51,863 bases of DNA from the NCBI GenBank assembly GCA_003554845.1, contig PWHK01000012.1, positions 1 through 51,863 of the forward strand, given 5' to 3'. Made by a program: the position numbers and the translations under genes. The notes beneath the pieces are model-generated. The model was not told where the DNA came from. It did not search any database and was given only the letters and a program-made list of their open reading frames with translations. The stretch comes from Candidatus Aenigmatarchaeota archaeon (GTDB taxonomy: Archaea; Aenigmatarchaeota; Aenigmatarchaeia; PWEA01). The first letter of the stretch is position 1, and each line of letters opens with the position of its first letter. Below, piece by piece: positions 19,830-49,469 of this stretch.

Positions 19830-21104
19830 CTATCCTATGTACTTCTTTCCGTTCATGTATGGTCTTAGGACCTTCGGTACTTTGATGCTTCCATCCTCTC
19901 TTTGATTCTGCTCTATTATTGCTATCATTGTTCTGCTGGTTGCCAGAGCCGTGTTGTTCAGTGTATGAACATATCCCTCGGGTGGCTTGCCTTCACCTTC
20001 CCTGTACTTTATCCCAAGGTTCCTGGCCTGATAGTCCAAACAGTTTGAGTTCGAACCTGTCTCGTGGAAGTTCCCATCGGCCATCCAGCATTCCACATCG
20101 TAAAGCTTGCTAGCCTTGTTGCTTATATCGCCTGTGCAGGCATTTACCACCCTGTAGTACAGTCCCAGCTTCCTGTACAGTTCCTCTGCATTTTCCTGCA
20201 ACTCTTCAAAGTAGTCCCATGAATCACCAGGCTTTCAGAAAACAAACTGCTCGACCTTGTTGAACTGGTGCATACGATACAAACCGCGGGAATACTTTCC
20301 ATGGCCACCACCTTCCCTTCTGAAGCATGGGGAAACAGCACATATTTTAACAGGAAGCTCTTCCTCGAGAAAGGTCTCGTCCTTGAACATTCCTCCGATA
20401 GGATATTCGGATGTAGGTATGAGCCACAGGTCCTTGTCCTTGATCCTGTAGGACTCTTCTCCACTTTTATCAGTGGATCCAAGTATGCCCTCGTATACGT
20501 CCGTTTTCACCATATAAGGTGGTTCAACTATCATATAGCCCTTCTTCTTCAGAAAGTCTAGGGCAAACCGCTGTATTGCCAGATCAAGCTCGACAAGTTC
20601 TCCTTTTAGAAAGTAGAAGTCGGATCCGGCTACCTTGGAGCCTCTTTCCACGTCCAGAAGGTCTTTCTCCTCCAGTATTTCCGTGTGAACTCTGGGTTCA
20701 AAGCCGAACTCCGGTTCCTTGCCCCATTTTCTTATCTCGACGTTGTCCTCTTCATCCTCGCCCTCCGGAACCTCTTCGTCGAGTATATTCGGTATCTTTC
20801 TGAGAAGGACGTCTCTTTCCTCCTTCAGTTCCTCTACACTTTCTTCCAGTTCCTCAAGCTCCTTCTTGACCTCCTGCATCTCGCTTATCTCTTCCTCGGC
20901 GTCCTTTCCCTCCTGTTTCAGTTCGGAAATCTTCTCTGTCTTCTTATTTCTCTTATGCCGTAGATCCTCCATCCTCTGGAGCTTTTCTCTCCATTTTTTG
21001 TCTTTTTCAAGAACTCTATCGACGATGTCCTCGGATCTCCCTCTTCTTCTCTGCGACTCCTTGACCTTCTCAGGATTTTCCCGCAGAAGCTCTACATCTA
21101 ACAT
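19830..21104 (-). CDS. serS: Seryl-tRNA synthetase with an in-frame TGA at 20235-20237
   Basis: N-part MLDVELLRENPEKVKESQRRR...SPCFRREGGGHGKYSRGLYRMHQFNKVEQFVF, then TGA, then same-frame KPGDSWDYFEELQENAEELYRKLGL...NNTALATSRTMIAIIEQNQREDGSIKVPKVLRPYMNGKKYIG. Motifs 2 and 3 intact across the stop. Confidence 0.93.
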
Positions 21105-23401: not shown

Positions 23402-24673
23402 ATGTCATCTTTAAAATTTTTAGGCGGCTGCAGAGAGGTGGGTAGATCTGCTGTTCTACTGGACACTGGTTCAGAAAAAATACTAATGGACTATGGTATA
23501 AAACTCAGTGATTCCGAAAGCGAAGATGGTATAGGCCGACCGGAAAAGGTAAATCTAAATATAGACGGCGTGCTTCTTACACACTGCCATCTGGACCACT
23601 CGGGCTTCATACCAAATCTGTATAACAGAGGATACAAGGGAAGTGTATACGCAACTGCTACAACCTTTGATCTTGCAAAAACACTCTGGGAGGATTCCAT
23701 AAAGATAGCAAGCATGGAGGGAAGGCAACAAGATTTTGTAGAATCCGATATCAAAAAAATCCAGAGAAATCAAAGGAGAGTTACAGTAGGCCAGACGTTC
23801 CCGATTGTAAACTCCGATGTTTCTATATACGGAGCAGGACATGTTCCAGGAAGCTCTTCCTTTATAGTAGACACCGGCGAGAAGACAGTCATGTACACCG
23901 GAGATATAAACACAAACGACACAAGACTTATGAATGGAGCCGATCCCAACTACCCCGATATAGATGTACTTGTGATGGAAACTACCTACTCTGACATAGA
24001 TCACAGCCCGAGAAAGAAACTCGAGGAAAAATTTGTTAAGAAAATCAAAGAAAGACTTGCAAAGGATGGAGTTGTAATTATACCATCGTTTGCCATAGGC
24101 AGAAGCCAGGAAATATTACTTATACTGAGAAAACATGGAATAAAGGCTCCAGTATATCTGGACGGCATGTCTGTTGAAGCGACAAAGAAAATTCTCAGAT
24201 ATCCTGAATTCTTGAGGTATCCTGATGAACTGAAGAAGGCCTACCATAATGCCAAGACTCCATACAACGACAACGAGAGAAAGAAGGCTCTCGAAGGACC
24301 AAGTGTTATAGTCACAACGGCTGGAATGCTCGGAGGCGGTCCCTTTGCATACTACATAAAAGAAATATACGACGAGGAAAACTGCTCTATACTTATGACG
24401 GGTTACCAGGTCGAAGGAACCGCAGGTAGAAAGCTTCTGGACACAGGAATATACGAACCAGAAAAACAGGGTCTGGATGTAAAATGTTATTACGAAATAT
24501 TTGACTTTTCAGCACATTGTGGAAGAAAGGAACTATTTGACTACGTTGAAAAAATAGATCCAGAAATGGTTATTGCGATGCATGGTGAAAAAGCAGAAGA
24601 GTTTATCGAGGACCTTGAAAAAAGAGGGCAGAAGGCGATAGCTCCTGAAAAGGGAGACACAGTAAGTTTCTGA
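23402..24673 (+). CDS. Metallo-beta-lactamase/beta-CASP ribonuclease (CPSF-like)
   Basis: LGGCREVGRSAVLLDTGSEKILMDYGIKL, LTHCHLDHSGFIPNL, MYTGDIN, IPSFAIGRSQEILLIL, TTAGMLGGGP, FSAHCGRKEL. Confidence 0.95.
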   Translation: MSSLKFLGGCREVGRSAVLLDTGSEKILMDYGIKLSDSESEDGIGRPEKVNLNIDGVLLTHCHLDHSGFIPNLYNRGYKGSVYATATTFDLAKTLWEDSIKIASMEGRQQDFVESDIKKIQRNQRRVTVGQTFPIVNSDVSIYGAGHVPGSSSFIVDTGEKTVMYTGDINTNDTRLMNGADPNYPDIDVLVMETTYSDIDHSPRKKLEEKFVKKIKERLAKDGVVIIPSFAIGRSQEILLILRKHGIKAPVYLDGMSVEATKKILRYPEFLRYPDELKKAYHNAKTPYNDNERKKALEGPSVIVTTAGMLGGGPFAYYIKEIYDEENCSILMTGYQVEGTAGRKLLDTGIYEPEKQGLDVKCYYEIFDFSAHCGRKELFDYVEKIDPEMVIAMHGEKAEEFIEDLEKRGQKAIAPEKGDTVSF

Positions 24674-24867
24674 CTGTGGCAAAATATTAATAACTTTTGG
24701 GTCAATAGTATACTTTAGTAGTTGTGGAGTGTGGTTAGATTAAGACCGAAGTGAACTATGCGATCAACAGAACGATATTTTCTACTATAGCCTTTGTCTT
24801 CGGATTTCTTTCAACAGGGAGGATGATTTAAATCAGAAATAGACTTCACCATGAAATACTTTACGAC

Positions 24868-25599
24868 ATGAAGGAAAGTTTCGTTGAAGAAGGATATAGC
24901 ACTGAAAATTTTTCTGGTGACATCCACGACTTTGTGATGGAACAGCCATATTACTTTCCGAACGGCACAATGCGTGGTGAAATTGATTTCATGGGCTTCG
25001 ACGAAGAAAGGGATAGAGCCATAGCAGTTGAAGTCAAACCACACGACAAACCCGGTCACATAAAACAAGCCTACTACCAACTATGGAAAGACGAGGTTTA
25101 TTTTTCAAATGTATATCCCGACAAAGAAATCATAACCTGCATGAAACTAGGCGATAAACCACTCAAGGAGGTCGTTGCAATGAACGAAGCGGACCTCAGG
25201 AAAGAAATGGTCAGGTACTTCGAAAACAATGGAAGCTTCAACACAATAACTGAAAACAAAAGGTTTTACAGAGAAGACGGTAGTCAGAGGGGTGTAGTTT
25301 CTGTGTTTGCAGAGGATATAGACAACGAAAAGATTGCACTTTGTAACGTTGCAGTCTACGCTAAAGAAAGCCTATGTCAATCTGCAATAGAAAGAGCCAA
25401 AAACGAAGTAGAAAATCTTACTCACAACAATAGATACAGTGGATGGGAAATAAACCCCTACGTCTATGTTAATGGCATTGGAAAAAAGGAAATAGAGATT
25501 GTGGATGAAGACTACGAAGAACCTGAAGTAAACTACAAAGTTATTGAAGATATAATGAACGAAGCTCCGAGATGGGCAATATGGGCCCCCAATATATAG
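24868..25599 (+). CDS. Putative PD-(D/E)XK-like nuclease domain protein
   Basis: MRGEIDFMGFDEERDRAIAVEVKPHDKPGHIKQAYYQLWKDEVYF fits the D...ExK core plus a downstream Q/Y helix. The coding-like frame continues upstream of the ATG. Confidence 0.6.
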   Translation: MKESFVEEGYSTENFSGDIHDFVMEQPYYFPNGTMRGEIDFMGFDEERDRAIAVEVKPHDKPGHIKQAYYQLWKDEVYFSNVYPDKEIITCMKLGDKPLKEVVAMNEADLRKEMVRYFENNGSFNTITENKRFYREDGSQRGVVSVFAEDIDNEKIALCNVAVYAKESLCQSAIERAKNEVENLTHNNRYSGWEINPYVYVNGIGKKEIEIVDEDYEEPEVNYKVIEDIMNEAPRWAIWAPNI

Positions 25600-25621
25600 A
25601 CCCGTTGGTAGAAGGGAGGAG

Positions 25622-26215
25622 GTGATGCATATCGAGGATATCGATGTCTTAAGGTCCAGATACAGCGGAATTGAAATTAGAAATCCACATAATCTAATAG
25701 AAAAGCATCCACACGACGAACTGGTATACAGAGATCTCCTTGACTATACCGACAGTATATATACATTCATAGGTGCCAAGATTCCTTGTTACGGTAAAAC
25801 AAGAAAAGAACAGATAACAGACATAGACCTTATAGGCATAGACGAAGAGACCAACAGAATCGATGTTTACGAGTACAAGTGTATGTTCAGGGACGACCTA
25901 CTGGTAAATGCCTTGGAAGGTGTCAATAAACTGAGAAAATATCTCACACAGGAAAACGGAAATAATGCCCATATACCTGACATTGAAGACAGACTTTCGT
26001 CTTTGAATGCGAAAAACTCGGAAATAACCTACTCGGTGAAGTTTGGTGACTTTGAGATAGGAGAGAACATAGAAAATATAGAAATTGTATCTGAAATCCA
26101 CGTCGATGACGATTTCTTTGAAGATGTTTTCCGTAAACTCAGAGATAGGGACGAGGAAAAACTTGTGAACTACTTGAGAAGTAAAGATATATTCATCGAC
26201 CACACCCAGAACTGA
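25622..26215 (+). CDS. Putative PD-(D/E)XK-like protein, divergent relative of the preceding gene
   Basis: ITDIDLIGIDEETNRIDVYEYKCMFRDDLLVNALEGVNKLRKYL; core aligns with the upstream gene. Strong SD GGGAGGAGGTGATG; ATG at 25625 also possible. Confidence 0.6.
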   Translation: MMHIEDIDVLRSRYSGIEIRNPHNLIEKHPHDELVYRDLLDYTDSIYTFIGAKIPCYGKTRKEQITDIDLIGIDEETNRIDVYEYKCMFRDDLLVNALEGVNKLRKYLTQENGNNAHIPDIEDRLSSLNAKNSEITYSVKFGDFEIGENIENIEIVSEIHVDDDFFEDVFRKLRDRDEEKLVNYLRSKDIFIDHTQN

Positions 26216-26253
26216 TTCAAGTTATTTATATTTTATTTATTTAATCTTAGAAC

Positions 26254-27216
26254 ATGGAAACATCCGAAGCAATGCTCTACGATTCCTATTTTATGGAGCT
26301 CCCCCAAGGCAAGGAAGAAGAGATAAGAAAGGAACTGGAAAAACGCGGTTACAATGAAGATACATGGAGTAAGGTAAAGGAATTTTACCATATGAATATA
26401 CTACCCAGTGGAGATCCCGAAGAAAAGGCCAGAAAAATAGAATCCCGTCTTTACAAAATCTACCCTGAAAAATATTTCGAAGAAAAATTCGAAAACGAAG
26501 AAATAAACAACATCTACTCTGTAAGTCTTCGGAAAAAAAACGACGGAAGACATCTTGTTCTACCTTTTTCATACCAGGACGAACTTGAACTCAGCGAATT
26601 CGACGGAGTAGATGGAGTAGTACTGGACCACAGTGTAGTATATAGTATCATGGAAAGATCCAGTACCATAAAGCTGGATAACATGTTGGACAAAAAGGTC
26701 GAGCCTCTTAAGAGAGTTTTGGATGAAATTGAAGAAAGGGGAGAAAGCCTGAGATCTGTTGACCCATATGGTTTGGCAGAAGATGTTAAGGAATCAATTA
26801 GCAAAACAACAAGTGTTCAATGGTACAAACCTCTTGAATTAATGGACAACATACTTACATGGAGAAAAAGGGGGGATGTCTACATAGACCTTTGCTACCC
26901 AGATGACCTCAAAGAAAAGGCAACGCTGCATGCTTCTAGAACAGGTGGAAATGGTATCTACAGGCAAATAGAGACAATCAACCTCCTTGAAGACATAGGA
27001 GAGCCTCTTGATATACCAAAATCACTCAAAAAAAGCTTTGAAAAAGATTTCAAAACCATGGCAGAAGATAAAACCATAATAGAGGTTGCAAAAGAAAAAT
27101 ATGAAAAACCTATGATAGTTACATACGATTCCGACTTCAAAGAACTCGTCGATGGTGAAGTATTTTCCATGCTCCCGGACTGTGCTAATTTTGTTCTTCG
27201 ATGTACCATAGAATAA
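26254..27216 (+). CDS. Putative PIN-like domain protein
   Basis: VDGVVLDHSVVYSIMERS ... AEDKTIIEVAKEKYEKPMIVTYDSDFKELVDG resembles the PIN acidic motifs (first D; D..I...A...; T.D.DF). Confidence 0.5.
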   Translation: METSEAMLYDSYFMELPQGKEEEIRKELEKRGYNEDTWSKVKEFYHMNILPSGDPEEKARKIESRLYKIYPEKYFEEKFENEEINNIYSVSLRKKNDGRHLVLPFSYQDELELSEFDGVDGVVLDHSVVYSIMERSSTIKLDNMLDKKVEPLKRVLDEIEERGESLRSVDPYGLAEDVKESISKTTSVQWYKPLELMDNILTWRKRGDVYIDLCYPDDLKEKATLHASRTGGNGIYRQIETINLLEDIGEPLDIPKSLKKSFEKDFKTMAEDKTIIEVAKEKYEKPMIVTYDSDFKELVDGEVFSMLPDCANFVLRCTIE

Positions 27217-27225
27217 AGAAGATAA

Positions 27226-28182
27226 CTATTCCAGATAGATCTGACCAAACCTGTTTTTACCCGTCCATTTATGGAAATCTTCGGTTTTAGCATTTTCCTT
27301 GAGATCTATAATTTGAACAGCCTGTGAGTCCAACTGATCAAGATAGTGGACCACGAGTGCTTCAGGAAACATGGGTTCTTTGACTGCGCCGTACTCAGCC
27401 TTTCCGTGGTGTGAAACTATTATGTGCAAAAGCTTGTTTTTGAGATTATCCGGGAACTTTTCAATGTCCCTCAGTTTTTCAAGTAGTATTTCCTGGCCAA
27501 GTGTTATATGCCCGGTAAGAAGTCCCGACCTGGACTGCTTTATATTGGTCGTGACCTCGAACTCTTTCATCTTACCTATATCATGTAGAAAGCAACCCAC
27601 CTTCAGAAGATCTAAATCAAGACTTCCGTGCTGATCCGATATCTTTTCAGCCAGTTCTATCATATGAAGAACATGTTCCATGAGGCCTCCTATGTAGTTA
27701 TGGTGGTAGAACATTGCTGCAGGGGACTTTTTGAACTCTTCTACAAAACTATCGTCCTCGAAAAAGGAATCCATAAGACGACTGATATCAGGATCCTCGA
27801 TGCTACCTAATTTCGTCTGGAGACTTGAAAACATTTCTTCGATATCCCTATCCGTCTTCTCTATAAAGTCCTCTATATTGTAGTCCTCCACCTTTCTAAG
27901 ACCACTTCCTTCAACATTCAGCTGCATATTTCCTTTGAACTCGGAGGCGCTTCCCTTCACTTCGAGGACGTCACCTGGCTTTATCTTTTCCTGGACTTTT
28001 TTGACCTTTTTCTCGTCTCTTCCGCCCCAGTACTTGGCCTCAACCTCACCGGTCGCATCTGCTAGTCCAAGTGTAAACATAAATCCATTTCTATAGGAAC
28101 GGACAGGTTTTTTGTATTTAACAGAGTAGGTACTTCTAACATCATCGCCTTCTTCCAGGTCTTCAACATTCTTTCTTTTCAT
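27226..28182 (-). CDS. OB-fold/HD-domain 3'-5' exonuclease (YhaM-like)
   Basis: N-terminal OB-like VEAKYWGGRDEKKVKKVQEKIKPGDVLEVKGSASEFKGNMQLNV, then HHNYIGGLMEHVLHMIELAEKI, GCFLHDIGKMKEF, IIVSHHGKAEYGAVKEPMFPEALVVHYLDQLDSQ. Confidence 0.9.
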   Translation of the reverse strand: MKRKNVEDLEEGDDVRSTYSVKYKKPVRSYRNGFMFTLGLADATGEVEAKYWGGRDEKKVKKVQEKIKPGDVLEVKGSASEFKGNMQLNVEGSGLRKVEDYNIEDFIEKTDRDIEEMFSSLQTKLGSIEDPDISRLMDSFFEDDSFVEEFKKSPAAMFYHHNYIGGLMEHVLHMIELAEKISDQHGSLDLDLLKVGCFLHDIGKMKEFEVTTNIKQSRSGLLTGHITLGQEILLEKLRDIEKFPDNLKNKLLHIIVSHHGKAEYGAVKEPMFPEALVVHYLDQLDSQAVQIIDLKENAKTEDFHKWTGKNRFGQIYLE

Positions 28183-28248
28183 ATGTACCCAAAGAACATT
28201 GTCTCTGAACAATAAAAAGTTTTATTCTATTTCCACCACAGTTAATTC

Positions 28249-49348: not shown

Positions 49349-49469
49349 TGGAGCCGCCGGTGGGATTTGAACCCACGGCCTGCTGATTTCTATGCCTTTC
49401 ATCCGCGAAGAACGCGTCAATAAATCAGCGTACAAGTCAGCCGCTCCGGCCGAACTGAGCTACGGCGGC
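49349..49469 (-). tRNA. trnT: tRNA-Thr (anticodon TGT) with a 43-nt intron at 37/38; CCA encoded
   Basis: Acceptor GCCGCCG/CGGCGGC, D-arm GCTCAGTTCGGCCGGAGC, anticodon loop CTTGTA^A, T-arm GTGGGTTCAAATCCCAC, 3' TCCA. Intron about 49388-49430. Confidence 0.93.

Follow-up and report, generated by a model that had tools for sequence, protein, structure and literature searches.

A candidate two-component nuclease module with diverged types at a fixed locus, and probable AUC start codons, in a genus of Candidatus Aenigmatarchaeota

A fixed slot between two conserved genes of RNA metabolism in one genus of Candidatus Aenigmatarchaeota holds nuclease-like genes which we tentatively read, with a probability of about 0.4, as a genus-specific two-component module acting against foreign nucleic acids. 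The window, i.e., the whole 51,863-nucleotide stretch of DNA analysed, is contig C12 of a 633-kb genome that is 95% complete (G000), and the locus was compared in this genome and five others of the same genus (G001–G005), six species in all. Three open reading frames lie on the + strand at 24868–25599 (gene 1), 25622–26215 (gene 2) and 26254–27216 (gene 3), separated by exactly 22 and 38 nt. A sequence-only reading had described these genes, gaps and motifs, all of which are present as it gave them, and had let the cassette span 24720–27216; the genes do lie there, but 24720–24831 is a promoter-proximal leader and not coding. The sister genomes hold homologues with the frame intact, and between G000 and G002, the closest pair, gene 1 has a pN/pS of 0.28 and gene 3 one of 0.21, which indicates purifying selection; the reading frames are therefore real genes.

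The slot is bordered by a gene for a beta-CASP RNase and a convergent gene for an OB-HD protein. The first (23402–24673, + strand; Pfam Beta-Casp, 7e-18) codes for an aCPSF1-like protein devoid of the N-terminal region, matching positions 177–628 of the TIGR03675 model with 315 bits, below the cut-off; its second-best match, also below the cut-off, is Cas14 of type VII CRISPR. The second (27226–28212, − strand; Pfam HD, 4.7e-15) resembles the 3'-5' exoribonuclease YhaM (NF010007, 1.6e-49, below its cut-off), and RtcA is encoded one gene beyond it. The full flank-to-flank order is visible in G000, G002 and G005, and the remaining genomes agree with it as far as their contigs extend. The contents of the slot vary: gene 1 and gene 3 in three of the six genomes (G001, G002, G003), genes 1, 2 and 3 in G000 only, genes 2 and 3 in G004, whose contig terminates inside gene 3, and gene 1 alone, without gene 3, in G005. 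The recurrent unit is one PD-(D/E)XK gene together with gene 3, and the proposal of a three-gene cassette does not hold, as gene 2 is found in two genomes of six and in one of them stands in for gene 1; what is conserved in the relatives is the slot (six of six), the trio occurring together only in G000. About 14–15 nt separate gene 3 from the end of its partner in G001, G003 and G004, so the two look like operon partners; a TATA-like element precedes gene 3 in G000 and G002. Profile searches of 156 genomes found no such module outside the genus, viral contigs searched with genes 1, 2 and 3 yielded no relatives, and a PDB sequence search gave no match. In G001, G003 and G005 only, the stretch from the beta-CASP gene to gene 1 holds an acidic ORF of ca. 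72–76 aa on the opposite strand (L003:2455-2685, L004:1001-1219, L005:1851-2075).

Gene 1 (24832–25599, + strand, counted from the start codon proposed below; 255 aa) has homologues in five of the six members of the genus, which share H-x-E in helix 1, G-E-x-D, E-V-K and A-Y-x-Q-L. In the N-terminal domain these motifs comprise H6/E8, D52, E67-x-K69 and Q83, of which D52, E67 and K69 are invariant in all five. The AlphaFold model built from the five homologues (pLDDT 86.6, pTM 0.76) contains the alpha-beta-beta-beta-alpha-beta order twice in tandem, the first unit, with pLDDT of about 90, being composed of helix 6–20, strands 33–41, 47–57 and 62–69, helix 74–94 and strand 99–106. Foldseek aligned ca. 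100 columns of this unit with PD-(D/E)XK nucleases, the top match being the small subunit of R.BspD6I (2p14; probability 1.00, E 3.8e-3, TM 0.28 by query and 0.37 by target), followed by the R2 endonuclease, Cas4/ACE1, Can2, AddAB, RecE and MGME1. The gene 1 profile has four matches outside the genus, each weak by itself (E-values are per genome, with 156 genomes searched): one PDDEXK_1/Cas4-like protein, two Endonuc_Holl proteins and an uncharacterised protein with the same motif. Independent annotations assign the PD-(D/E)XK fold to three of these four. A PD-(D/E)XK nuclease fold is, as a prediction, well supported for gene 1. The C-terminal domain is a degenerate copy, apparently a dead PD-(D/E)XK unit, in which the catalytic residues are replaced (D by S, E by N, K by V): GEPDIFAMDFDEDLYVLCEVKTY in the first unit is matched by GIVSVFAESKEEKEIAICNTVMP in the second (sequence of G003), the D, E and K being gone, and hhalign scored one half against the other at 27.6, with a maximum of 23.2 in 200 column shuffles. 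This copy lay beyond the reach of the sequence-only reading.

For genes 2 and 3 the assignment is probable and rests on sequence motifs and weak profile matches. Gene 2 (25622–26215, + strand; ca. 195 aa), found in G000 and G004, carries the motif TDIDLIGID...YEYK, at which it aligns weakly with the core of gene 1; its G004 homologue has QYK in place of EYK, which changes ExK to QxK. Its profile matches, at the DIDLI...K motif, a restriction enzyme of the RE_BsaWI type (PF18643) adjoining a DNA methylase (L024), a borderline match with E 0.005 per genome among 156 genomes searched. Of the two PD-(D/E)XK-like proteins proposed earlier, gene 1 was thus borne out by structure prediction and gene 2 is a probable member. 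Gene 3 (26254–27216, + strand; 320 aa) codes for a helical N-terminal domain of ca. 110 aa with the motif A.KIE.RLY.IYPE, followed by a probably PIN-like domain with LDHS...IIEVA...TYDSDF. It matches DUF5615 with E 0.003 and 17.8 bits, below the Pfam cut-off of 23.8, and no other PIN model in Pfam matches it; in two members of the family IIEVA...IVTYDSDF matches DUF5615, again below the cut-off. Against DUF5615 and VapC sets, hhalign gave 23.2 and 23.0, above all 60 shuffles, over just 21–27 residues, and other weak DUF5615 matches in the phylum, read by eye, are mostly PIN-protein-like. The gene 3 structure model had a pLDDT of 41 and, given this low confidence, was left out of the fold search. 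Homologues of gene 3 occur in five of the six genomes, always adjoining gene 1 or gene 2. A genome-collection search with it gave matches only in three members of the genus; the relatives bearing it there are Candidatus Aenigmatarchaeota MAGs, isolates T1Sed10 and B1Sed10, which we take to be samples of hypersaline soda-lake sediment. Matches to gene 3 in G056, G096 and G111 were taken as chance, the genes there being unrelated.

The promoter region and a leader of ca. 110 nt (24670–24827, + strand), delimited by alignment, are common to all six members of the genus, even G004 with gene 2 in place of gene 1. The conserved promoter region contains AAAATATTAATAACTTT, within about 24680–24697, promoter and leader together show the blocks GGTTRGATY......GAAG and TAGCCTATGCTGTC, and the 3' end of the leader bears the Shine-Dalgarno-like GGAGGATGAT (24818–24827). 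A known or strongly structured RNA was considered for the leader and rejected, since it has no match in Rfam and its folding is no better than that of shuffles (z-scores from 0.2 to 2.0, no stable structure). Gene 1 can be read without a stop from 24832 onwards, and the invariant H-x-E of helix 1 lies in the 12 residues preceding ATG 24868, so that a start at that ATG would remove it; the true start is therefore most likely ATC 24832. A pseudogene, to which the TAA at 24829–24831 might point, was rejected, as this triplet falls within the 4-nt spacer between the Shine-Dalgarno sequence and the proposed ATC, no later stop follows and pN/pS is 0.28. In gene 2 the Shine-Dalgarno sequence GAGGTGAT (25619–25626, + strand) lies 4 nt before ATC 25631, most likely its true start. 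Every homologue has a GAGGTGAT-type sequence, exactly 4 nt and then ATC, ATT or, in gene 2 of G004, CTG. The natural start of aEF1A of Pyrococcus abyssi, GGAGGUGAUUUAAAUG, has the same architecture but with AUG (PMC6237735). The gene for ribosomal protein S6e, compared at L041/L054 (G000 C8:47970) and L055–L059, provides an independent test: in four genomes from a different family within the order it begins with ATG-TTC-AAG, whereas in all six members of the genus the corresponding codons are ATT-TT(C/T)-AA(G/A), which follow GAGGTGAT after 3 or 4 nt. The spacer is one nucleotide shorter in G002, where no in-frame ATG, GTG or TTG lies between the upstream stop and ATT. The S6e comparison and the start architecture of the genes therefore make the predicted use of AUU and AUC as start codons in the genus well supported. 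If so, standard gene callers would mis-start or shorten the proteins of this genus, and the ATG call would drop a conserved residue of the catalytic helix from gene 1. A thermosome-like gene (L042, ATT) and an ORF of 130 aa (L052, ATC) in G000 show the same start layout.

Genes 1 and 3 have diverged into types, while the identity of the flanks is 75–86% for beta-CASP (all pairs) and 77–78% for OB-HD. Gene 1 is 38–40% identical between {G000, G002} and {G001, G003, G005} and 65–78% within these types; for gene 3 the values are 34–42% and 56–72%, respectively, and G004 carries, beside gene 2, a third and most divergent type of gene 3 (31–40%). The types of the two genes co-vary across genomes. 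Since the flanking genes give a nearly star-like picture, the pattern suggests that diverged types have replaced one another or that genes 1 and 3 have diversified jointly in episodes; alternatively, with six genomes compared, acceleration along just one branch, the one shared by G000 and G002, could account for it.

No family in Pfam, PADLOC, PHROGs or NCBIfam fits genes 1, 2 or 3, and PADLOC protein families gave no match up to E 1, in accordance with the earlier statement that no known restriction, CRISPR or toxin–antitoxin (TA) system has this layout. The N-terminal domain of gene 1 shares with the PD-(D/E)XK superfamily (2p14, Cas4/ACE1, the R2 endonuclease, RecE, MGME1) the core, D...ExK, the acid of helix 1 and the following Q, but it has no family-level sequence match and is followed by the apparently dead copy. 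Its nuclease core also matches the CRISPR ancillary nucleases Can2/Card1 (8bao, 8q3z), which are likewise two-domain proteins with a nuclease domain; however, TM over the whole chain is 0.31, no CARF family was detected and the second domain of gene 1 looks like a dead PD-(D/E)XK fold. Gene 2, unlike type II enzymes, lacks an adjacent methyltransferase, none being found among the neighbours scanned (RNase, OB-HD, RtcA, HSP20, HTH, unknown), and no viral or mobile gene was seen adjoining the module. Gene 3 probably shares IIE.A......VTYDSDF and an acidic residue at the first strand with DUF5615 and VapC-type PIN proteins but differs from them in its extra N-terminal domain and in having no VapB-like partner.

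In the preferred reading, one component would be a PD-(D/E)XK nuclease, either gene 1 or the very different gene 2, and the other gene 3, a putative RNase that is PIN-like and has a helical domain of its own. In gene 1 the N-terminal domain is predicted to be active, and the dead copy probably serves recognition or dimerisation. The PD-(D/E)XK subunit would cut or sense incoming DNA, the PIN protein would contribute an RNase effector arm, and shifting targets would lead diverged types to swap at the same slot. A conflict module is suggested by the predicted active nuclease core, the fast-diverging operon partner, the alternative nucleases in the slot and the conserved flanks. The sequence-only reading had offered defence or RNA decay as a function; type turnover at a fixed locus fits the former, a role that we infer, and it is the neighbouring genes that suggest the latter. 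Against defence stand the missing matches to defence families in PADLOC, PHROGs, NCBIfam and Pfam and the lack of adjoining viral, mobile or methyltransferase genes; moreover, the slot is fixed and vertical-looking and not a defence island, genes of RNA metabolism adjoin it, and G005 holds gene 1 without gene 3, which also speaks against a two-component module. Restriction-modification and CRISPR are reported to be under-represented in DPANN archaea, which have compact systems instead (PMC12988326). A more specific form of the preferred reading, rather unlikely as a whole, is a so far undescribed archaeal module of immunity or conflict, in which a live and dead PD-(D/E)XK tandem and a PIN-type RNase form a unit, with types swapped at a fixed slot and translation from AUC or AUU, which may hold nuclease levels low. 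If it were true, an unrecognised nuclease module with type turnover would help to explain how the reduced genomes of DPANN archaea handle foreign DNA.

The main rival, because of the neighbouring genes, is RNA processing: both nucleases would be lineage-specific factors of RNA processing or decay that work with the beta-CASP RNase and the YhaM-like exonuclease, and their accessory status would account for the fast divergence. PIN-like proteins are usually RNases, and the fixed position between the genes for the beta-CASP RNase and the OB-HD exonuclease, with RtcA one gene farther, the presence of the module in some form in all six genomes and purifying selection agree with such a role. We nevertheless consider it doubtful, as the rate of evolution is ordinary in the flanks but not in genes 1 and 3, PD-(D/E)XK proteins act mostly on DNA, replacement by gene 2 would be unusual for a housekeeping factor, and in G010, the sole outgroup with an orthologous OB-HD gene, this gene adjoins neither a beta-CASP gene nor the module. 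Flank identities of 75–86%, set against 34–42% between the types of genes 1 and 3, thus fit housekeeping RNA decay less well than a conflict module that diversifies or is swapped.

A TA-like pair, in which gene 3 would be a PIN RNase toxin restrained by the nuclease-fold product of gene 1 or gene 2, would explain the closely spaced two-gene operon of G001, G003 and G004, and the co-variation of types; PIN proteins are, besides, common TA toxins. It is improbable, since gene 1 retains D...ExK and occurs alone in G005, gene 3 has an additional domain, and no small DNA-binding antitoxin of the VapB type lies beside gene 3, whose partners are larger than VapB antitoxins and match no antitoxin family. 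A nuclease of DNA repair or recombination (RecB/Cas4/Hjc-like) with an unrelated neighbour, to which the Endonuc_Holl and Cas4/RecB-type matches of gene 1 and the Q conserved after its ExK motif would correspond, is likewise improbable, as no helicase or other repair partner is adjacent, gene 1 is not conserved outside the genus and its types co-vary with those of gene 3.

Two observations concern other parts of the window. The seryl-tRNA synthetase gene is split by an in-frame TGA at 20235–20237 (− strand), where two sister genomes have TGC (Cys); it may be a sequencing error, a real mutation or recoding. A tRNA match at 49352–49469 (− strand) is 118 nt long against a 71-position model, which suggests that this tRNA contains an intron.
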